A stretch of DNA of 64,000 nucleotides from Flavobacteriales bacterium (GTDB lineage Bacteria; Bacteroidota; Bacteroidia; Flavobacteriales_D; Crocinitomicaceae): positions 1 to 64,000 of the forward strand of contig CANLIL010000002.1 in NCBI GenBank assembly GCA_947491305.1, written 5' to 3'. Each line of letters opens with the position of its first letter. Within the stretch, counting starts at the first letter, position 1. Both the position numbers and the translations under genes were made by a program. The notes beneath the pieces are model-generated. The model was not told where the DNA came from. It searched no databases and saw nothing but the letters and a program-made list of their open reading frames with translations. Positions 1 to 36,635 of the stretch are shown here, piece by piece.

Positions 1-732
1 GAAGCAAATGGGCAGCTCACGGCTACACTTTCAAATACGGCCTACTTGCCATTAAGTTTTAGTGTCAACAATGCACCCTTTCAAAATAGTTCTACTTATA
101 CCAAGCAGTTTCAAAATTTGCCATACGGACCATTACTATTAACGGCAAAAGATGGCCATCAATGCACAATAGATACACTACTTACCATTCCATACAACAA
201 TACTTGCTCAGCCTTGTTTACAGCTTCGCCTTCCACAGGCGCAACACCTTTAAACGTTCAATTCTCTAATCAAAGTACCAATGCAACTAATTATGCTTGG
301 GAAATCAATGCAACATCATTGGGTTCAATCTTAAACAATCATATTTTTGATACTGCAGGCACTTATTTCGTTCAACTTTACGCGTGGCAAAATATTCCCG
401 AATGCATTGATTCATTTTCGGTTCAAATCATTGTATTTGATAGCTTAGTTGTCCAAGTTCCCAATGTTTTCACCGTCAATAATGATGGTGTAAATGATGT
501 TTTTTCATTAATTAGCAATCAAGAAATTACTGTTGCATACAGCATTGTTAACAGATGGGGAACAGTTGTAGCATCAGGTACAAGTAAATCACTTCCAATA
601 ACTAATGGTGTTTACACCACAACAATTTGGGATGGACGAAACGCAACAAATGGCGTTTATTTTTACACCATTACTTTACAAAGTCAGGGAGAAAACAAAA
701 TCGTAAATGGCTTTGTGGAGCGTTTGGATTAA
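1..732 (+). CDS. C-terminal part of a T9SS cargo protein (CHU_C type), cut by left edge
   Basis: The reading frame is open from base 1, so this is the 3' end of a longer gene whose start lies outside the window. The 243 visible codons hold the end of a SprB-like repeat, a PKD-type beta-sandwich (signature region around ALFTASPSTG and FDTAGTYFVQLY), and a C-terminal CHU_C gliding-associated sorting domain (VPNVFTVNNDGVNDVF, NRWG, WDGR, NGVYFY, GFVERLD). Known members of this family are exported by the type IX secretion system and displayed on the surface. Every base matches residues 396-638 of the gene at 1054-2970. An internal TTG at 46 could be mistaken for a start, but the homology runs through it. 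The head of this protein cannot be seen. Confidence 0.9.
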   Translation, partial: EANGQLTATLSNTAYLPLSFSVNNAPFQNSSTYTKQFQNLPYGPLLLTAKDGHQCTIDTLLTIPYNNTCSALFTASPSTGATPLNVQFSNQSTNATNYAWEINATSLGSILNNHIFDTAGTYFVQLYAWQNIPECIDSFSVQIIVFDSLVVQVPNVFTVNNDGVNDVFSLISNQEITVAYSIVNRWGTVVASGTSKSLPITNGVYTTTIWDGRNATNGVYFYTITLQSQGENKIVNGFVERLD

Positions 733-793
733 AAGTCATTATTAACTCAACTTTAAACATTTTTTAAGAACCTAACTTAGTTGAAGTTCTAAA
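1..793 (+). repeat. Direct repeat copy 1 (identical to 2239-3031)
   Basis: Line-by-line comparison shows no mismatch to 2239-3031 (offset 2238). The repeat covers the C-terminal coding part of the cargo gene, its stop codon and 61 bases beyond it, and ends just after the first GTTCTAA box. Its left end lies outside the window, so the full repeat may be longer. Confidence 0.97.
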
Positions 794-822
794 TAAGTAC
801 AATTAAGTTCTAATTTAGAACT
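767..822. promoter_or_regulatory. Putative operator boxes, copy 1
   Basis: This segment holds AGAACCTAA (767-775), GTTCTAA at 786-792, and GTTCTAA at 807-813 facing TTAGAAC at 815-821. The last pair forms a perfect 8+1+8 palindrome at 806-822. The two direct boxes are 21 bases apart, about two helical turns. The segment lies immediately before the decayed Xre remnant, where an autoregulating Xre protein would bind. The function is inferred from position, symmetry and the matching boxes at 3005-3051. Confidence 0.5.
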
Positions 823-828
823 ACAAAG

Positions 829-990
829 AAAATAGGTAAAATATTTCGTCAATAAAGAGAATTAAAATGGTGTTCGTTAATTTGAAATCCATCTAAACTG
901 ATTTGAATCAGCATGATTATCGTTAATTAGAAACTTAAAAATAATTGACCAAGAAACAGTATCAAATTTTAGAAGATGAAATCTATTTTT
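829..990 (+). pseudogene. Decayed Xre-family regulator remnant
   Basis: Reading in one frame from 829 gives K-I-G-K-I-F-R-Q-stop-R-E-L-K-W-C-S, which aligns with residues 4-19 of the intact regulator at 3061-3414 (RQIRELKGYS). At nucleotide level 26 of 33 bases match between 844-876 and the start of that gene. Farther on the alignment weakens but continues in the same frame to about 990 (S-K at 892-897, K-L-K-N-N at 931-945, I-F at 985-990), interrupted by several stop codons. It sits at the same position relative to its cargo gene as the intact copy. The stretch 991-1053 is an AT-rich leader of the next gene with no clear feature. The first 20 codons are convincing; the rest is suggestive. 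Confidence 0.65.
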
Positions 991-1053
991 AAAAAAATAA
1001 TAAAAGTTTATTTTTTTTTATTTAATTATAAAAAATGATTAATTTAGTATTAT

Positions 1054-2970
1054 ATGAAAACCACGTTAATACTATTTTTGTTTGTAACAACGCATTATAT
1101 TTTTTCTCAAAAAATATTTTATCAAGACATTTGTAATTGTGGGGTTTCAGGTGCAGGTTTTTCTAATGGTATTTCAGGTTTAGCAAATTCTGGACAGATT
1201 GTAACTAATTTAGATATAAATTCAGTTATAAAAAAAGCATTTTTAATTTATGGTAGATTTGGAGAAACGGAACCAATAACAATAAATTTCAATGGACAAA
1301 ATTTAACTTTATCAACTTCAAATCAAGCCGGTAATAAATTTGTTTCTTTCCAAGAAAATAATTTAGTTGAGTTTTCATCAATTCATATTAAAGACGTAAC
1401 AGAATTTATTAACATAAATCAAAATACATATTTAATTAATACTCCACTTCAATCACATACTATTGGAGAATCAGGTTTTTTTGGGTCTTTCTACTTAATT
1501 ATTGTTTTTGAAAATCCAAATTTCGAAAAATCTGTTCAAACATTAATTGTCAATGAATTGAATTCTAATTCTGTTGTAGATTATAGTTTTAATAATTTAA
1601 TGCCTATAAATAATTTTTTTCCAGTGAGTTTAGCTATTCATTCAGATATTATATGGGATACTATTAATGATGGATCATTTATTGAAGTTAATAATAATCT
1701 CATTGGATTAATCGGGGGGGATGACAACATTAATAGTCAATTTCTCGGAGGAGGAGTTAAAGGTCATTTTTATTATTTAAACAATGAATTGTTTGGTTTA
1801 GATGACGATCTTCCAAATTTATCGATGAATGGAACTGACGGGCTTGCAGATATTAGTTCGATAATTACAAACACCAATAATATAAATATAAGAATGACAA
1901 AACAAATGTCCGCACCTTATAATATGTATCTATCATTTAACCTCGCCTACACTTCCTCCTGCGCTTCATTTCCAGTTACAACATCACCTGACACCTCCGT
2001 TTGTAAAGGTTCCACCTTGCAATTACAAGCTTCAGGCGGAGTACAATACGACTGGCTTCCTGCCGCTGGTTTGAGTTGCAGTACTTGCCCCAATCCAATT
2101 GTTCAAACAGATAGTTCGCAATTCTATACGGTTCGTATTTGGAACAATGATAGTTGTTCTGTGGTGCGTCCAGTTCATGTAACGGTTTATGAACCTGCTA
2201 AATTTTCCAACATTTCAATAACACCAACAACTTGTGGAGAAGCAAATGGGCAGCTCACGGCTACACTTTCAAATACGGCCTACTTGCCATTAAGTTTTAG
2301 TGTCAACAATGCACCCTTTCAAAATAGTTCTACTTATACCAAGCAGTTTCAAAATTTGCCATACGGACCATTACTATTAACGGCAAAAGATGGCCATCAA
2401 TGCACAATAGATACACTACTTACCATTCCATACAACAATACTTGCTCAGCCTTGTTTACAGCTTCGCCTTCCACAGGCGCAACACCTTTAAACGTTCAAT
2501 TCTCTAATCAAAGTACCAATGCAACTAATTATGCTTGGGAAATCAATGCAACATCATTGGGTTCAATCTTAAACAATCATATTTTTGATACTGCAGGCAC
2601 TTATTTCGTTCAACTTTACGCGTGGCAAAATATTCCCGAATGCATTGATTCATTTTCGGTTCAAATCATTGTATTTGATAGCTTAGTTGTCCAAGTTCCC
2701 AATGTTTTCACCGTCAATAATGATGGTGTAAATGATGTTTTTTCATTAATTAGCAATCAAGAAATTACTGTTGCATACAGCATTGTTAACAGATGGGGAA
2801 CAGTTGTAGCATCAGGTACAAGTAAATCACTTCCAATAACTAATGGTGTTTACACCACAACAATTTGGGATGGACGAAACGCAACAAATGGCGTTTATTT
2901 TTACACCATTACTTTACAAAGTCAGGGAGAAAACAAAATCGTAAATGGCTTTGTGGAGCGTTTGGATTAA
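1054..2970 (+). CDS. Secreted T9SS cargo protein with SprB-like, PKD and CHU_C domains
   Basis: This 638-residue protein starts with a signal peptide (residues 1-18, cleavage near FSQ). Residues 20-295 are a beta-rich region I do not recognise. Residues 303-380 form a Cys-containing Ig/PKD-like domain (CKGSTLQLQASGG). About 385-460 is a SprB-type repeat, 465-545 a PKD domain, and 546-638 a CHU_C sorting domain. By family knowledge it is exported through the type IX system and surface-attached, possibly as an adhesin. The head (1054 to about 1940) is strongly AT-rich with A/T-ending codons. From residue 297 codon use shifts abruptly to C-rich codons, and from residue 396 the sequence is identical to the gene at 1-732. 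The head contains a run of seven G at 1714-1720. It is followed by its own Xre gene. Confidence 0.9.
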   Translation: MKTTLILFLFVTTHYIFSQKIFYQDICNCGVSGAGFSNGISGLANSGQIVTNLDINSVIKKAFLIYGRFGETEPITINFNGQNLTLSTSNQAGNKFVSFQENNLVEFSSIHIKDVTEFININQNTYLINTPLQSHTIGESGFFGSFYLIIVFENPNFEKSVQTLIVNELNSNSVVDYSFNNLMPINNFFPVSLAIHSDIIWDTINDGSFIEVNNNLIGLIGGDDNINSQFLGGGVKGHFYYLNNELFGLDDDLPNLSMNGTDGLADISSIITNTNNINIRMTKQMSAPYNMYLSFNLAYTSSCASFPVTTSPDTSVCKGSTLQLQASGGVQYDWLPAAGLSCSTCPNPIVQTDSSQFYTVRIWNNDSCSVVRPVHVTVYEPAKFSNISITPTTCGEANGQLTATLSNTAYLPLSFSVNNAPFQNSSTYTKQFQNLPYGPLLLTAKDGHQCTIDTLLTIPYNNTCSALFTASPSTGATPLNVQFSNQSTNATNYAWEINATSLGSILNNHIFDTAGTYFVQLYAWQNIPECIDSFSVQIIVFDSLVVQVPNVFTVNNDGVNDVFSLISNQEITVAYSIVNRWGTVVASGTSKSLPITNGVYTTTIWDGRNATNGVYFYTITLQSQGENKIVNGFVERLD

Positions 2971-3031
2971 AAGTCATTATTAACTCAACTTTAAACATTT
3001 TTTAAGAACCTAACTTAGTTGAAGTTCTAAA
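2239..3031 (+). repeat. Direct repeat copy 2 (identical to 1-793)
   Basis: This is the second copy of the repeat described at 1-793. It includes codons 396-638 of the cargo gene and 61 bases after its stop. Beyond 3031 the copies diverge sharply, although the following regulator genes are recognisably homologous. Confidence 0.97.
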
Positions 3032-3051
3032 AAATTGTATTTAGGTTCTAA
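3005..3051. promoter_or_regulatory. Putative operator boxes, copy 2
   Basis: AGAACCTAA at 3005-3013 is the reverse complement of TTAGGTTCT at 3041-3049. GTTCTAA occurs at 3024-3030 and 3045-3051, again 21 bases apart. The segment ends 9 bases before the ATG of the Xre gene at 3061. The right-hand box lies outside the identical repeat yet keeps the same spacing as in copy 1, which argues for function. Autoregulation by the Xre protein is an inference. Confidence 0.5.
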
Positions 3052-3060
3052 AACAGCATT

Positions 3061-3414
3061 ATGAAAATTAATTTAGGCCAAAAAGTTCGTCAAATAAGAG
3101 AGTTAAAAGGCTATTCGCAGGAATACATCGCATCAAAAATGGGTGTATCTCAACGTGCGTATAGTAAAATGGAAAACAATGAAACCCGTTTAGATTGGAA
3201 TAAAATTTCAAGAATTGCCGAAATATTTGGGATTGAGCCACATGAATTATCTTCTTTTGATGATAATTTGATATTTAAAAATTGTATTCAATCAGGTAAA
3301 ATAGAACAATTAAATAATAACATGCCAGAAAAATTAATCGAGCAATACGAAATCAGAATCAAACATTTAGAAGGTGAAATTGGGTTTTTAAGAGATATGC
3401 TAAAAAAAGATTAA
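3061..3414 (+). CDS. Xre-family helix-turn-helix regulator
   Basis: This 117-residue protein has an N-terminal HTH_3 fold at residues 7-62 (RQIRELKGYSQEYIASKMGVS, then YSKMENNE) typical of Xre/Cro-like DNA-binding proteins. The C-terminal helix, about residues 84-117 (EKLIEQYEIRIKHLEGEI), has a heptad pattern suggesting a coiled-coil dimer. It follows the cargo gene on the same strand after 90 bases that carry repeated GTTCTAA boxes, so it probably controls itself and perhaps the cargo gene. A decayed homologue stands behind the neighbouring cargo copy at 829-990. The target genes cannot be determined from the sequence. Confidence 0.88.
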   Translation: MKINLGQKVRQIRELKGYSQEYIASKMGVSQRAYSKMENNETRLDWNKISRIAEIFGIEPHELSSFDDNLIFKNCIQSGKIEQLNNNMPEKLIEQYEIRIKHLEGEIGFLRDMLKKD

Positions 3415-3487: not shown

Positions 3488-4891
3488 TTATACATGTAAA
3501 GCGCGATTGTCTGTTGCAGCCAAAGCAGCTTCTTTCACTGCTTCCGAATACGTTGGGTGAGGGTGACAAATGCGTGCAATGTCTTCTGCTGATGCTCTGT
3601 ATTCCATCGCTACCACTGCTTCCATAATCAAATCAGCAGCTCTTGGTGCTATCATGTGTACACCTAACACTTCGTCTGTTTTGCTGTCTGCGATAACTTT
3701 AACTAATCCTGCTGTATCCATACTTGCGCGTGCTCTACCCAATGCTTTGATTGGGAATGAACCTACTTTGTATTCAACGCCTTCAGCTTTTAATTGCTCT
3801 TCTGTTTTACCAACAGCAGCAACTTCAGGCCATGTGTAAACAACACCAGGAATAAGGTTATAATTAATATGTGGTTTTTGTCCTGCGATTGTTTCAGCTA
3901 CAAATACACCTTCTTCTTCAGCTTTATGAGCAAGCATTGCTCCGCGAACAACATCACCAATGGCATAAATGTTTGGAACATTCGTTTGTAAATGATCATT
4001 TACATCAATTTGACCACGATCTGTAACTTTTACACCTGCTGCTTCTAAGTTCAAACCTGCTGTAAATGGTTTTCTACCAACAGCCACTAAACAATAGTCA
4101 GCTTCTAAGGTAACTGTTTCACCTTTTTTATTCAATGCAGTTAAAACAACGTGATTTCCTTTGTTTTCTACTTTTTGAACCTTTGACTCAAAATGAAATT
4201 TAAAGCCTTCTTTTTTCAAAACTTTTGTCAATTCTTTACCAAGTGCTGCATCCATTGTTGGAAGAATAGAGCTGTTAAATTCAATCACTTCAATTTCAGT
4301 TCCTAAACGACCGTATACAGATCCCAATTCTAGCCCAATTACTCCACCACCGATTACCAACATTCTTTTTGGAATCTCTTTCATGACCAATGCTTCCGTA
4401 GAAGTAATGATTCTTTTTTTATCTGGCTCCATTCCTGGAAAAAAGTTAGGTTTTGAACCAGTTGCAATAATAATATTCTTAGAAGTGATGTTGGTTTCAC
4501 TTCCATCATTTGCCGTAATTTTAATCGTGTTTTTATCAACGAATGAACCTAAACCGTGAATTACTTCAATTTTGTTTTTATCCATTAAAAATTTAACACC
4601 TGCGCACGTTTGAGAAACAACATCGCTTTTACGTTGAATCATTTGCGTGATGTTTGCTTGAACATCTTTTACATCAATTCCGTGTTCTTTGAAATTATGG
4701 ATGGCATTATGGTAATGTTCCGATGAATCTAACAACGCTTTAGAAGGAATACAACCAACATTTAAACATGTACCACCTAAAGTGTCATATTTTTCAATAA
4801 GAGCTGTTTTCATTCCTAATTGAGCACAACGAAGTGCAGCAACGTATCCACCTGGTCCTGAACCAATAATTGTAATGTCGTAAGCGTTCAT
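3488..4891 (-). CDS. lpdA: Dihydrolipoyl dehydrogenase (E3)
   Basis: This 467-residue flavoprotein reoxidises dihydrolipoamide in the 2-oxoacid dehydrogenase and glycine cleavage complexes, passing electrons to NAD. An N-terminal FAD Rossmann motif (GSGPGGYVAA) is followed by the redox disulfide motif GGTCLNVGCIPSK with Cys42 and Cys47. A second dinucleotide-binding motif GGGVIGLELG binds NAD. The FAD-contacting segment YAIGDV and the C-terminal catalytic HPHPTYSE pair are present. Length is normal for the family. It is monocistronic here, with a TAACTTTG -7 element about 18 bases before the ATG. lipA, which makes the lipoyl cofactor, lies 3.4 kb away on the same strand. Confidence 0.97.
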   Translation of the reverse strand: MNAYDITIIGSGPGGYVAALRCAQLGMKTALIEKYDTLGGTCLNVGCIPSKALLDSSEHYHNAIHNFKEHGIDVKDVQANITQMIQRKSDVVSQTCAGVKFLMDKNKIEVIHGLGSFVDKNTIKITANDGSETNITSKNIIIATGSKPNFFPGMEPDKKRIITSTEALVMKEIPKRMLVIGGGVIGLELGSVYGRLGTEIEVIEFNSSILPTMDAALGKELTKVLKKEGFKFHFESKVQKVENKGNHVVLTALNKKGETVTLEADYCLVAVGRKPFTAGLNLEAAGVKVTDRGQIDVNDHLQTNVPNIYAIGDVVRGAMLAHKAEEEGVFVAETIAGQKPHINYNLIPGVVYTWPEVAAVGKTEEQLKAEGVEYKVGSFPIKALGRARASMDTAGLVKVIADSKTDEVLGVHMIAPRAADLIMEAVVAMEYRASAEDIARICHPHPTYSEAVKEAALAATDNRALHV

Positions 4892-30320: not shown

Positions 30321-31256
30321 ATGAAGAAAAAAATTATTCTTTTAGCCTCTTTATTTTTTGTAGCATATGGAAACATTATGGCACAACAAGATAAATTGAT
30401 CACTCATTTCATGTATGACAAGATGAGTATTAATCCTGGCTCAACAGGGATTGAAGATGGTATTTGCGCTACTTCTCTATATAGAAATCAGTGGGACAAA
30501 ATTAGTGGAGCGCCAAATTCAGGAATATTAAATGTTGAAGCAAATTTAACGCGTTTTTTTCCAGGTGGAATTGGTATTTCATTTTTTCATGATGCAATTG
30601 GATTTAACAGACAGAATAATTTATTGTTAAATTACTCTTTTCCTATTAAAATTGGAAGTGCAGGCACTTTAGGAATTGGTATTGGTGCTGGTATGGTAAA
30701 TTTTGGTATGTCACCTGATTGGGTTCCACCTACAACAAATGCAGATTCTAAGCTTCCAACAGAATTTAGTGCTACGAATTTAGATTTAAATTTCGGTATT
30801 TATTTCAAAGGTTCTTCTGATTATTATGTTGGTGTTTCGTCAACACACTTAAATGAATCATTGATGACGCAAAAAGTAGGGAACATTGATCAGAAATATC
30901 AAATGGCTCGTCATTATTACTTAATGGGAGGTAAAAAGTTCAGAAATATTTGGGGAGGTGATTTAGATGCACAAGCTTTAGTGAGAACCGATTTAATTAA
31001 ATTCTCATCAGACATCAGTGTTCGATATATTTATAATGATAAAATGTATGGTGGTTTAACTTACAGAACTGTCGATGCTGTTGGAATTATGTTGGGCTAT
31101 ATTCCAATGAAAAATTTCACAATAGGTTATTCTTATGATTTAACTACAAACAAGTTGGCGAGTGCTTCTAGAGGTTCACATGAAATACTTTTAAAGTACT
31201 GTTATCACTTGCCAAAACCCCCAATGTCAAAGGCAATTCATCCTAGATGGTTGTAA
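30321..31256 (+). CDS. PorP/SprF-family outer-membrane protein of the type IX secretion system
   Basis: A 311-residue beta-barrel protein with a signal peptide (residues 1-21, cleavage after IMA). The hallmark N-terminal region DKLITHFMYDKMSINPGSTG and LYRNQWDKISGAPNS is that of PorP/SprF. Such proteins work with the T9SS translocon, often in partnership with particular CHU_C-type cargo. It is the first gene before gldK, the order seen for porP-porK in Porphyromonas. The 173-base region before it (30148-30320) is AT-rich, and I could not place a convincing promoter there. A small hairpin follows the gene. Confidence 0.9.
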   Translation: MKKKIILLASLFFVAYGNIMAQQDKLITHFMYDKMSINPGSTGIEDGICATSLYRNQWDKISGAPNSGILNVEANLTRFFPGGIGISFFHDAIGFNRQNNLLLNYSFPIKIGSAGTLGIGIGAGMVNFGMSPDWVPPTTNADSKLPTEFSATNLDLNFGIYFKGSSDYYVGVSSTHLNESLMTQKVGNIDQKYQMARHYYLMGGKKFRNIWGGDLDAQALVRTDLIKFSSDISVRYIYNDKMYGGLTYRTVDAVGIMLGYIPMKNFTIGYSYDLTTNKLASASRGSHEILLKYCYHLPKPPMSKAIHPRWL

Positions 31257-31280
31257 ATTAAAAAAATAATTACAATATTT

Positions 31281-31298
31281 GTAACCAATTTAGGTTAC
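31281..31298. terminator. Weak hairpin between porP-like gene and gldK
   Basis: GTAACC (31281-31286) pairs with GGTTAC (31293-31298) over a 6-base loop, followed by only three T. It may attenuate or stabilise the RNA between the two genes rather than end transcription. Confidence 0.35.
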
Positions 31299-31372
31299 TT
31301 TCCGTTATAATTCAAACTATTGATCCTGTAAATGTTTAGTTGAATCCGGAAATAAAATATAAAAGAGGTAAA

Positions 31373-32935
31373 ATGAAAAAACTTTTGTTATTTGTTGTTT
31401 TAAGTGTTTTGTTAGTTGCTTGTAAGCAATCTTCTGGACATTTAACAGGCACTTTAGGTAGACCAGTCTACAATCCTGAAGTTCCTTTAGGGATGGTATA
31501 TGTTCCTCATGGTTCTTTCCAAATGGGAGAAAATGATCAAGATGTTCCGTTTAAACATGAGACGCGTGCTAAAACAGTTACTGTTCCAGCATTCTACATG
31601 GATCAAACAGAGATTTCTAACAATGAATACCGTCAATTCGTAGAATGGGTGCGTGATTCTATTGCTAGAGATAAATTGTATGTTGGTTTAGAAGCAGATG
31701 ATGAAGCGGAACGTTTTATTAATTACCAAGATCGTTATTTTGACGAAGGAGCTTTAGAATTTGCAGATTATGACCCTTCTGATCGTGATAACAACCGTGC
31801 TATCTTTAATTTGAATTGGGATCGTCCGATCGATTACTCAGATGAGTTAGTTGTTCCATTGTTAGCTGATATGTATTACCCGCAGCCAGAGCGTTTCTAT
31901 AAAAGACGTGAAATTGATATTCGTAAGTTAATGTTTAGATATTACTGGATTGATGTTAAAGAAGCAGCTAAAAGAGGAAGAATCAACATAACTAAAGATG
32001 GATACGAATCTACTGGACAAGTTCAAGATCCAGCTTCTAAATCAGTTGAAGAACACAGAACGTTGATTTCTCCTCCTCATCCTTTTACTAAAGAACCACA
32101 AGGTCAAGATAAAGATTTAGGTTTCTTTAATAAAAAAGGACAAAACAATGCTATTAGAGGCCATGAAGACAGAAAACGTTTTATAATCGATGAGGTGATA
32201 AATGTTTATCCTGATACATTGTGTTGGGTGCGTGATTTCACATACTCGTTTAACGACCCAGTTTCAAACATGTATTTTTGGCACCCAGGATATGATAATT
32301 ATCCAGTAGTAGGTGTGACGTGGGTGCAAGCGAAAGCATTTGCTGTTTGGAGAACACAATTCTTAAACAATTGGTTGGTTTCTATGGGTGATTTATTTGT
32401 AAATGATTTCCGTTTGCCAAATGAGTCTGAATGGGAATACGCTGCAAGGGGAGATTTGGAAATGTCTCAATATCCTTGGGGTGGACCTTACATTCGTAAC
32501 GAAGTGGGTTGTTTCTTAGGAAACTTTAAACCAATGAGAGGTCGTTATGAAGACGATGGTGGTGTTCAAACTGTTAAAGTTTACTCTTACAATCCAAATG
32601 GATGGGGATTATATTGTATGGCTGGTAATGTTGCCGAATGGTGCGAAACAGCTTACGATGAGTCAATGTATGAGTTCTCTCATGATATGAGTGCTGATTA
32701 CAGATATGACGCAATGGATTGGGATGCTCCTTCAAATAAACGTAAAGTTATTAGAGGTGGTTCTTGGAAAGATATTGGTTATTATCTTCACAATGCTACA
32801 CGTACGTATGAGTACCAAGATTCTTCAAAATCTTATGTAGGATTTAGAAATGTAATGACACACATCGGTCGTGGAGGAAGAGATTTCTCTAGAGAAGGTG
32901 GAGAAGAAATTCGAAGTGATATTGAATTACGCTAA
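31373..32935 (+). CDS. gldK: Gliding motility/T9SS lipoprotein GldK
   Basis: A 520-residue outer-membrane lipoprotein (lipobox LLVAC, Cys17) with a formylglycine-generating-enzyme (FGE-sulfatase) fold: MVYVPHGSFQMGEND, FYMDQTEISNNEYRQF, FRLPNESEWEYAARG, AGNVAEWCE and VIRGGSWKD. In T9SS, GldK (PorK) forms the large periplasmic ring with GldN. The ATG at 31373 is chosen over an upstream in-frame codon because it places the signal peptide at the N-terminus and has AGAGG 5 bases ahead, one of the few Shine-Dalgarno-like sites here. It heads gldK-L-M-N. Confidence 0.97.
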   Translation: MKKLLLFVVLSVLLVACKQSSGHLTGTLGRPVYNPEVPLGMVYVPHGSFQMGENDQDVPFKHETRAKTVTVPAFYMDQTEISNNEYRQFVEWVRDSIARDKLYVGLEADDEAERFINYQDRYFDEGALEFADYDPSDRDNNRAIFNLNWDRPIDYSDELVVPLLADMYYPQPERFYKRREIDIRKLMFRYYWIDVKEAAKRGRINITKDGYESTGQVQDPASKSVEEHRTLISPPHPFTKEPQGQDKDLGFFNKKGQNNAIRGHEDRKRFIIDEVINVYPDTLCWVRDFTYSFNDPVSNMYFWHPGYDNYPVVGVTWVQAKAFAVWRTQFLNNWLVSMGDLFVNDFRLPNESEWEYAARGDLEMSQYPWGGPYIRNEVGCFLGNFKPMRGRYEDDGGVQTVKVYSYNPNGWGLYCMAGNVAEWCETAYDESMYEFSHDMSADYRYDAMDWDAPSNKRKVIRGGSWKDIGYYLHNATRTYEYQDSSKSYVGFRNVMTHIGRGGRDFSREGGEEIRSDIELR

Positions 32936-32989
32936 GAATAAATAAACAACAAACAATTAAATTATTTAAAAACACAAAAACAAAAAACT

Positions 32990-33793
32990 ATGAAACCAGG
33001 AAGTAAAGGATGGAAAAAGTTTATGGCGAAACTGTATGGATTTGGTGCAGCAGTAGTAATCGTAGGAGCTTTATTTAAAATTATGCATTGGCCATATGCA
33101 GGGCCAATGCTTGTAGTAGGATTAAGTACTGAGGCGTTGATTTTCATCTTCTCTGCTTTTGAACCAATTCATGAAGATCCAAACTGGGAATTAGTTTACC
33201 CTGAATTGGCTTTAGGTCATTCAGATGAGTTAGATCACAGTAATTTACCAGCAGGTAAATCTAAAGGTGGAATTACGGATCAATTAGATAAAATGTTGGA
33301 AGAAGCTAAAATTGATAGTCAATTGTTAGAGCGACTTGGAGACGGAATGCGTTCTTTAGGTGAAAATGCTGCTCAATTGAAATCAGTTTCATCTGCAGCT
33401 GCTGCAACAGATTCTTATGTTTCTAGTTTACAAGCTGCATCTGATAAAGTTTCTAATCTTTCTGAAGCATACGAAAGAGCGTCTGTTTCAATTTCTGGAT
33501 TGACTTCAGAGGCTAAAGAAGGTGAATCTTTTGGAGAACAAATGCAAAAAGTATCTAAAAACTTAGCTGCTTTGAACAATGTTTATGAATTACAATTGAA
33601 AGGTTCTTCTTCACATTTAGAAGCAACTGAAAAATTCCAATCTCAAGTAGTAGAGATGATGGCGAATCTTTCTGCTTCTACTGAAGATACAAGATTGTAC
33701 AAAGAAAACATGGCGTTATTGGCTAAAAACTTAACTGACTTAAATAACGTTTACGGAAATATGTTAAAAGCTATGACAATAACTAAAGGATAA
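32990..33793 (+). CDS. gldL: Gliding motor stator protein GldL
   Basis: A 267-residue inner-membrane protein. Two membrane helices lie at residues 15-33 and 38-57 in the conserved block FGAAVVIVGALFKIMHWPYA followed by GPMLVVGLSTEALIFIFSAF. Glu48 in helix 2 is the conserved charged residue implicated in proton coupling in the GldL5-GldM2 motor. The rest is a cytoplasmic helical region (residues 85-265) rich in Ser, Ala and Glu. It lies 54 bases after gldK and 69 before gldM. Confidence 0.97.
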   Translation: MKPGSKGWKKFMAKLYGFGAAVVIVGALFKIMHWPYAGPMLVVGLSTEALIFIFSAFEPIHEDPNWELVYPELALGHSDELDHSNLPAGKSKGGITDQLDKMLEEAKIDSQLLERLGDGMRSLGENAAQLKSVSSAAAATDSYVSSLQAASDKVSNLSEAYERASVSISGLTSEAKEGESFGEQMQKVSKNLAALNNVYELQLKGSSSHLEATEKFQSQVVEMMANLSASTEDTRLYKENMALLAKNLTDLNNVYGNMLKAMTITKG

Positions 33794-33862
33794 TCTCAGA
33801 TTAACCAGTTATTATAAGTTATTGAAAATATTTATTGAGAAACAATAAAAATTAATTAAATC

Positions 33863-35596
33863 ATGGCAGGAGGAAAAGAAACCCCAAGACAGAAGATGAT
33901 CGGTATGATGTACCTTGTACTTACCGCACTTCTGGCCCTTAACGTATCAAAACAAGTATTGGATGCATTCGTTGCAATTGAAGAAAATACACAAAAATCT
34001 TCAATTACACATTTGGATAGAGGTAATTCTGCTAAATCTGACCTTAGTGGAGAATTAGCGGACAAAACAAATCCAATTGAGAAAATCAAAAAAATTAAAT
34101 ATTACCTAGGAATAATTGATCAAATTGATGCTGAAACAGCAAAACGCATCAAAGAAATCGATGATTTGAAATTGAATATCTTGAAAGAAAGTGGTGAAGA
34201 TATCACTAAAATTAAAGATAAAGATAAAGAATCAATTGTTTGGGTTCCATACAGCAAAGCAAATCCATTGTTGCCAACACGTTTGAATTTGATGGCAGTG
34301 CAAGCAAAGGATCAATACGATGTACCGATGCACATTATCGTCGGAGAGGAAATCAAAAATCCTAAAGGTGATGGTCTTAAATTATGGAATAGTTACAACG
34401 ATTTTAGAAACACTGTTTGTAAATTAGTTGGAACGTATAAAATCGGAACGAAAGGATACACATTAAACCCAACGAATATCAACAAGTTTAAGGATAACGA
34501 TGATTTGGCAAAACAAGTTGATAAAATGTTCGCTAAAAACAAAGTAAATATCAACGATGATGGTGAAGTAATCAAAAACATTTACATGGAATTGACTAAA
34601 CCAGAACGTGTAGATATGGACGAAGAGAAAGGTGTTCACTGGATTGGTAAAACATTTGACCATGCTCCTTTAGTTGGTGCTATAGCTTCTTTAACTGCGT
34701 TGCAACAAGAAATTTTAGCGGCTCGAGCAACAGCAGTAGCTCACATCAAATCCCGTGTTAGTACAGGTGAATACAGCTTCAACAAAATTGTTGGTTTAGC
34801 GTATGGTCCAGCTGTTGCCAATTCTGGTGATGAAGTTGAATTGAAAGTAATGATGGCAGCATTTGATACAGACAATCAACCAACTGTAACTGGTCCTGGT
34901 GCTATAACTGTAGCTGACGGTCAAGGTATTGTTAAGGTTAGAGTTTCTGGTGGAGCTGAAATGCCTGTTAGTGGAACAGTTTCGATTAAAAATAAATCGG
35001 GTGCTACTAAAACTGAAAAGTGGACGCATACAATTAAAATTATGAAGCCACAAGGTACTGTTTCTTTGCCAGAAATGAGAGTTTTGTACAGAGGGTATAA
35101 AAACCTTGTTGAGGCAGTTGCATCAGGATATGATCAAACAACAATTAGTGGTGCTGGTGTTAGTTTGACTAAGTCTGGTATTCAATGGATTGCTACACCT
35201 GGTTCTGGTACAGAATGTTCAATTTCAGTTTTTGGAAAAAGTTCTGTAACAAATAAAAGTGTGAATCTCGGTAATTTCAAATTCAAGATTAAAAAAATGC
35301 CAGCGGCAAAAATTACTTGGGGTAAATTTGGAACAGGAGATAAAGCTACAAACAGAGATGGTAAAATTCTTAATGCTGGATATGATGAATCTATTCCTTT
35401 AACGGCATCATTTAAAGTAGAAAAATGGATACTAAATGTAGGGTCAAAATCTGCTTCCGGAGTTGGGAATAAATTATCTAATGAGGCTATGGCTATTTTA
35501 AGAGCAGCTACACCAGGTTCTATGGCTTCATTCTCTTGTATCTATTCAGGAACAGGAACTGGTGGCGCACCTGCTGATTTAAATGTTAAGCTTTAA
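33863..35596 (+). CDS. gldM: Gliding motor/periplasmic shaft protein GldM
   Basis: A 577-residue protein with one N-terminal membrane helix (MIGMMYLVLTALLALNVSK) preceded by the conserved Arg9, and a long periplasmic part of beta-rich domains ending near residue 577. GldM couples the GldL motor ring to the GldK/GldN ring across the periplasm. Its sequence matches the family from start to end, including the N-terminal VLDAFVAIEE segment. It lies 23 bases before gldN in the same operon. Confidence 0.97.
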   Translation: MAGGKETPRQKMIGMMYLVLTALLALNVSKQVLDAFVAIEENTQKSSITHLDRGNSAKSDLSGELADKTNPIEKIKKIKYYLGIIDQIDAETAKRIKEIDDLKLNILKESGEDITKIKDKDKESIVWVPYSKANPLLPTRLNLMAVQAKDQYDVPMHIIVGEEIKNPKGDGLKLWNSYNDFRNTVCKLVGTYKIGTKGYTLNPTNINKFKDNDDLAKQVDKMFAKNKVNINDDGEVIKNIYMELTKPERVDMDEEKGVHWIGKTFDHAPLVGAIASLTALQQEILAARATAVAHIKSRVSTGEYSFNKIVGLAYGPAVANSGDEVELKVMMAAFDTDNQPTVTGPGAITVADGQGIVKVRVSGGAEMPVSGTVSIKNKSGATKTEKWTHTIKIMKPQGTVSLPEMRVLYRGYKNLVEAVASGYDQTTISGAGVSLTKSGIQWIATPGSGTECSISVFGKSSVTNKSVNLGNFKFKIKKMPAAKITWGKFGTGDKATNRDGKILNAGYDESIPLTASFKVEKWILNVGSKSASGVGNKLSNEAMAILRAATPGSMASFSCIYSGTGTGGAPADLNVKL

Positions 35597-35618
35597 TATT
35601 AATTAATTCGTTTTTATT

Positions 35619-36635
35619 ATGAAAAATACATTGTTTAGTTTAATAGTTTTATTTAGTGTTTGTAATTTACATTCACAATTAGAACTAATAAATGGAGGAC
35701 CTGTTAATGTGCCTTCAGAGGGAGTTATTGACGGTATTTATATAAAGGAACATGTTCCAACTAAACGAATGATTGCATATGAAGACGTTCGTGAAGCGGA
35801 TGTAATTTGGAATAGAAGAGTATGGAGCTACATTGATTTGAGAGAAAAGATTAACCATTCAATGTATTATCCATTTGATGATTATACATTTCCTGATGGA
35901 GTTTGGATTAAAAACAATACACGATGGAGTTTGTGGACAGTTATTAAACATAATATATATGAATCTAATCTCACAATATATGAACCAAAAAATCCGCTTT
36001 CTGGAGATCAAGGTCCGTTTGATGGTGACCAATTCAAATATCCACTAAAATCTCAAAATAATTTAAATTACGCAAGCGATAAAGCTTTTAAAGATAAAGT
36101 AGATGGTTATTTGAATATTATTTCAAATAAAAGATTTGTTGCTATACCATCAGAAATTGACGGTTCAGATTCAGTTACTATTGATCCTGCAACTCAATTG
36201 TCTACTGTTGTTACAAAGGACACTTTTGATTTAATTCGAATTAAATCTGAAAATATCGTTCAATACCGTTTGAAAGAAGAATGGTTCTTTGATAAAGAGC
36301 GTTCAGTTTTAGACAAACGTATTTTAGGATTAGCTCCAGTTATTTACGACCAAACAAAAGAAGGCGGTAAATATGTTGAGTTGTTTTGGTTGTATTTTCC
36401 AGAATGTCGTTTGGTATTCAATAACTATTTTGTTTACAATGAATTGAATGATGCGCAATGGATGAGTTTTGATGACTTATTTTGGAAAAGACGTTTCAAT
36501 GCTGTGATGTACAAAGAAAGCAATGTATATGACAGAGGAATTGATACCTATAAAAATGGTGTGGATGCCTTGCATGAAGCTGAACGAATCAAAGAAGGAA
36601 TTCGTACAATTGAACACGATGTTTGGAATTTCTAA
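35619..36635 (+). CDS. gldN: Gliding motility/T9SS ring protein GldN
   Basis: A 338-residue periplasmic protein with a signal peptide (residues 1-19, cleavage near LHS). The family blocks MIAYEDVREADVIWNRRVWSYIDLREKIN and WFFDKERSVLDKRILGLAPV are present (only partly quoted). GldN (PorN) binds GldK in the periplasmic ring and is required for secretion. It is the last gene of the operon and is followed by a strong terminator. Confidence 0.97.
   Translation: MKNTLFSLIVLFSVCNLHSQLELINGGPVNVPSEGVIDGIYIKEHVPTKRMIAYEDVREADVIWNRRVWSYIDLREKINHSMYYPFDDYTFPDGVWIKNNTRWSLWTVIKHNIYESNLTIYEPKNPLSGDQGPFDGDQFKYPLKSQNNLNYASDKAFKDKVDGYLNIISNKRFVAIPSEIDGSDSVTIDPATQLSTVVTKDTFDLIRIKSENIVQYRLKEEWFFDKERSVLDKRILGLAPVIYDQTKEGGKYVELFWLYFPECRLVFNNYFVYNELNDAQWMSFDDLFWKRRFNAVMYKESNVYDRGIDTYKNGVDALHEAERIKEGIRTIEHDVWNF

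Follow-up and report, generated by a model that had tools for sequence, protein, structure and literature searches.

Tandem type IX secretion cargo genes with identical tails and divergent heads in a Crocinitomicaceae bacterium: a probable case of concerted evolution

The stretch of DNA analysed here (the window) comprises 64,000 nucleotides from a Crocinitomicaceae flavobacterium, whose assembly, a contig set of 2.53 Mb, was the genome searched. Base 1 of the window is base 1 of a 91.6-kb contig (C2). The array at this end of the contig reads, in order, operator 1 and cargo 1; operator 2, an xre relic and cargo 2; operator 3 and an intact xre gene; and then lpdA. The window opens within cargo 1, whose 3′ end (positions 1–732, forward strand) encodes 243 residues with a PKD-like and a type B/CHU_C sorting domain. 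Cargo 2, on the same strand, consists of a signal peptide and variable head of about 300 residues (1054–1962), an Ig-like domain (1963–2238) and a tail of PKD-like and CHU_C domains (2239–2970) that is the same sequence as window positions 1–732. As originally predicted, the two genes form a pair of CHU_C-type surface cargos, both open reading frames ending in a CHU_C domain (Pfam PF13585). The right flank is an lpdA-like dihydrolipoyl dehydrogenase gene (3488–4891, reverse strand; named from its sequence), common to the window and to a sister species (G016, a Crocinitomicaceae MAG, JAHEIL010000045.1).

The original prediction also described tails that are identical over at least 793 bases, including 61 beyond the stop codon, and this holds base for base. 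Repeat copy 1 (1–793, forward strand, beginning at the contig end) and copy 2 (2239–3031, forward strand) are 100% identical, including the 61 bp past the stop, and the first mismatch between them, at position 794, falls within operator-like sequence. In the proteins, the final 243 residues of the two cargos are 100% identical, the Ig-like domains are 90% identical (94% in nucleotides) and the heads, each of about 300 residues, are only 36% identical. A search for more cassettes, as had been recommended, found none of this kind in the 2.53-Mb genome: the tail exists in two copies with no third, and the remaining CHU_C-type matches are 26–36% alike.

Because contig C2 begins where the exact repeat begins, base 1 of the window is a contig end. 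The end of a second contig, C45, overlaps window positions 1–127 exactly (127 bp), and its other end overlaps contig C13, also by 127 bp; overlaps of this length at both ends are expected of a k=127 graph assembly. C45 ends with the part of cargo 1 that the window lacks, its head (C45:20548–21856), and the reading frame of this gene stays open across the C45/C2 overlap, giving 637 residues with no stop. The base just ahead of the repeat is already unlike between the copies, and the contig therefore broke at the repeat start. A short-read assembler could have collapsed the similar tails of two genes into one consensus, and a contig that starts exactly at the repeat, its k-mer-like 127-bp overlap with its neighbour and the position of some further cassettes at contig ends would all fit such an artefact. 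However, both heads, the 94% identical Ig domains and the regions past both tails assembled separately, so two genes exist, and a relative assembled as a single contig (G038a) has the same kind of contrast between heads and tails. We consider an artefact very improbable, although the repeat is a graph node in this assembly, so that the 100% tail identity may hide a few smoothed differences.

Both cargos score above the cut-off of 27 bits for CHU_C (PF13585; 45.4 and 47.7 bits) and below the cut-off of 35 bits for TIGR04131 (NCBIfam; 24.9 and 27.4 bits). By Pfam they are thus T9SS type B proteins, by TIGR04131 divergent members, and their secretion is predicted. Core genes of the T9SS are present in the window itself, as porP-gldKLMN at 30321–36632. 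A porP/sprF gene directly downstream of a type B cargo is common, though not universal; none is found directly downstream of these two, where xre and lpdA stand instead. Type B tails need PorP/SprF shuttles, and the functional type B signal has been estimated to span up to 235 residues (PMC12618676), a length close to that of the 243 residues identical between our cargos. Since the genome holds eight PorP_SprF genes, none of them adjoining the cargos, a shared distant shuttle would be a reasonable cause of the tail uniformity.

For the head of cargo 2, AlphaFold2 gave a confident all-beta model (pLDDT 88, pTM 0.88). No Pfam family was matched by the cargo head, and comparison of its fold with the PDB and BFVD gave no convincing match, with TM-scores of about 0.4 at most. 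We infer that the heads are adhesin- or ligand-binding-type domains. The viral contigs searched contained no cargo relative, so there is no sign of a phage origin.

The second of the two regulators was predicted to be intact and the first decayed, and both prove to be real. The intact gene (3061–3414, forward strand) encodes a 117-residue Xre-family protein with an HTH_3 match at E=8e-14. The relic (839–1010, forward strand) lies in the leader of cargo 2 as a 5′ piece (839–876) and a 3′ piece (942–1010) with the middle deleted; the first corresponds to the 5′ part of the intact gene and the second to its 3′ part, and none of 1000 shuffles equalled either match. No clear relic signal above shuffles came from the leader of cargo 1 or from that of the sister-species cargo. 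What does change is the phase of the unit, which had been read as a cargo followed by its Xre gene. Among relatives, that order occurs only in the sister species, as in the window, and xre stands directly ahead of the cargo in G025, L117, G038a, L131 and L133. Judged by the order mostly seen in relatives, the cassette unit is operator-xre-cargo and, because their xre usually precedes its cargo, the relic belongs with cargo 2 and not with the tail of cargo 1. Most cargos in relatives have neither an adjacent Xre nor an operator upstream.

All three promoters of the array carry operator-like sites. The direct repeat GTTCTAA-N14-GTTCTAA precedes cargo 1 (operator 1, C45:20419), recurs at 786–813 in the leader of cargo 2 and forms operator 3 (3024–3051, forward strand), which ends 9 bp ahead of the xre start codon. 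Operator 2 as a whole (786–821, forward strand) has the form GTTCTAA-N14-GTTCTAATTTAGAAC, that is, two direct half-sites 21 bp apart plus a 15-bp palindrome. The palindrome, GTTCTAANTTAGAAC, is found in exactly two places in the 2.53-Mb genome, both of them cargo promoters (reversed control, 0); the intact xre is preceded by the half-site repeat, the palindrome being confined to the cargo promoters. A fourth match to the direct repeat, on contig C10, lies within a glycosyltransferase-like gene and was taken as chance. The GTTCTAA half-site repeat also stands ahead of xre in G025, L117, G001 and G006, and a palindrome, GTTCTAATTAGAAC, ahead of the distant xre of G038a. No significant operator was found ahead of relatives' cargos that have no adjacent Xre. 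The Xre proteins of the window, G025, L117, G001, G006 and G038a have in common a putative recognition-helix motif, SQRAYSK. The close Xre relatives in G001 (L091) and G006 (L092), with the same half-site repeat, are encoded head-to-head with other secreted-protein genes and not with this cargo.

Xre/Cro-type autoregulators adjoin the genes that they control, as HTH_3 proteins with operator-like repeats at their own promoters. The window protein resembles them in both respects, but its neighbour is a T9SS surface protein rather than a phage lysogeny or toxin-antitoxin gene. From the distribution of these sites, it seems likely that the Xre binds the GTTCTAA sequences and acts as a repressor, and the one surviving Xre probably controls the array. 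As the sole intact copy, it would act at the GTTCTAA operators to repress the promoters of both cargos as well as its own; with one Xre covering all three, regulation could have survived the decay of the second xre.

How did two genes come to have identical tails and unlike heads? The original prediction doubted a simple recent duplication, with good reason: recent duplication of the cargo-Xre unit was rejected because heads, leaders and regulators all differ between the copies. The sister species has one cassette between the same flanks as the array of the window. These flanks are about 88–93% identical, and nucleotide identity to the window is 93% in lpdA, 91% in the tail and 80–82% in the Ig domain. 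The heads are 29% identical in amino acids, and past the signal-peptide region their DNA shows no long match. In each of the three comparisons (cargo 1 with cargo 2, and either with the sister-species cargo) identity steps from about 30% to 80–90% at residue 300 or so. Heads thus turn over at a fixed locus. The window Xre is 60% identical to its sister-species counterpart and 76% identical to the one in G025, a more distant genome; like the heads, then, the regulator departs from the pattern of the flanks. Left of cargo 1 on C45, a large type A (Por_Secre_tail) surface protein gene (L005:11563–15345) is about 70% identical to the sister species in its 5′ part and about 85–88% in the remainder, and is a second gene at the locus with a more variable N-terminal part.

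The turnover of heads between flanks that are about 88–93% identical would also be expected if a whole cassette had been duplicated recently and one copy had then received a foreign head by crossover in the flanking homology (operator/signal peptide on one side, Ig/tail on the other), the tails being young duplicates that have undergone no conversion. By identity, the head nearest to that of cargo 2, G038a_8504, indeed comes from another family (43% identity, the CHU_C part only 24%). This scenario has difficulty with the Ig domains (94% in nucleotides) and the leaders (a relic xre in one and none in the other), which also differ, so that further events are needed beyond a young duplication and the replacement of one head. 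Tails are alike, moreover, among copies that are dispersed in the genome of STD2_89, described below. On balance we regard duplication and import as an improbable account.

The comparison across the family points to recombination in the tails. Among copies within a genome, median identity is 83% for tails and 50% for heads; between genomes it is 31% and 29%. The excess of tail over head identity has a mean of 28 points within genomes versus 2.7 between them, and 0 of 5000 permutations reach the observed value. Four genomes have tandem pairs, with heads 34–39% and tails 88–100% identical; besides the window these are G038a (a single 4-Mb contig; heads 34%, tails 88%), G023 (39% and 92%) and Dive100 (37% and 96%). 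In a tree of 35 heads those of cargo 1 and cargo 2 are not sisters (AU p=0.0011); tails from the same tandem pair do group as sisters in their own tree. The AU test also rejected sister heads in G038a (p=0.036) but did not reject them in G023 (p=0.21) or Dive100 (p=0.15). The original suggestion that recombination keeps the tails identical while the heads differ is therefore supported by the tree test (AU p=0.001), by the identical tails and by the recurrence of the pattern in other genomes. In STD2_89 (JAQVCM01; L118, L124, L127 and L130) four dispersed copies have heads 60–66% and tails 69–96% identical, and tails up to 96% alike suggest that conversion may also act between distant loci. A second tandem cargo pair, without xre, occurs in G038 (L088; heads 93%, tails 98%), with patches from 70% to 100% that form a mosaic as conversion would give.

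Taken together, and although sister heads stand unrejected in two of the pairs and most cargos in relatives lack a neighbouring Xre and an operator, we think it probable that the locus is a small array of T9SS surface-protein cassettes under concerted evolution. A cassette starts with an operator-like site, followed in some copies by an xre, and then by a cargo gene that encodes, in order, a signal peptide, a variable head, an Ig-like domain and a CHU_C tail. Within a genome, the tails of different copies are nearly identical and their heads strongly divergent. The proposed mechanism is homologous recombination between tails, as gene conversion or unequal crossing-over, within a shared stretch that would reach from the Ig domain into the operator that follows. 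It would copy tails between cassettes and, where crossing-over is unequal, add or delete cassettes. Copying would preserve one signal for secretion and anchoring across the cassettes, presumably served by a single PorP/SprF shuttle, and the heads would meanwhile diverge or be replaced. Horizontal import of heads at the same anchors would fit the comparison with the sister species and may act together with tail conversion.

A bolder and more tentative reading, which we hold to be possible rather than probable, is that this is a previously undescribed Crocinitomicaceae diversification locus, in which heads are swapped and cassettes gained or lost between two fixed anchors (the operator/signal peptide and the homogenised type B tail) and a single, locus-dedicated Xre governs every cassette in trans. 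Further still along this line would be programmed antigenic or phase variation, with a dedicated recombination system that reassorts heads or switches the expressed cassette, for which one might cite that heads turn over while the locus stays fixed and that each head in the array is flanked by repeats on both sides. This seems most unlikely, given that a search of the genome found no silent, head-only (partial) cassettes, that no recombinase is present among the open reading frames adjoining the array and that both cargo genes are full length, each with its own operator.

Concerted evolution of the tails has a counterpart in the Helicobacter pylori adhesin paralogues babA/babB, whose 3′ segments are alike within a strain; these genes and homA/homB share with our cassettes a divergent 5′ part, few loci and intragenomic recombination (PMC3960876). 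The bab proteins and their export route are different, however, whereas here the conserved part is a T9SS tail, the genes often form a tandem array, and some copies have an adjacent Xre and shared operators. SprB and the other type B substrates of Flavobacterium johnsoniae, surface proteins that are known or predicted adhesins, likewise have a CHU_C-type C-terminal sorting domain and a functional signal of up to about 235 residues (PMC12618676, PMC9143113); our cargos differ in having no adjoining porP/sprF, a small all-beta head that matches no Pfam family and, beside some copies, an Xre gene. The gingipains and haemagglutinins of Porphyromonas gingivalis are also modular T9SS surface proteins diversified by recombination and allelic exchange (PMC5266723), but in that species the variation lies between strains, in adhesin modules and alleles; in our cassettes the N-terminal head differs and homogenisation within genomes affects the tail. 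In the open-access literature, the one paper that matched type IX secretion together with concerted evolution appears to concern components of the machinery.

The array would extend concerted evolution of the babA/babB type to T9SS type B cargo of environmental Bacteroidota. It also suggests a reason for the homogenisation: as the 243 homogenised residues approximate the published functional type B signal, conversion would allow many heads to be served by one and the same shuttle. Finally, control of such cargo becomes directly testable, since the array supplies a candidate regulator whose defined operator is limited to three places.
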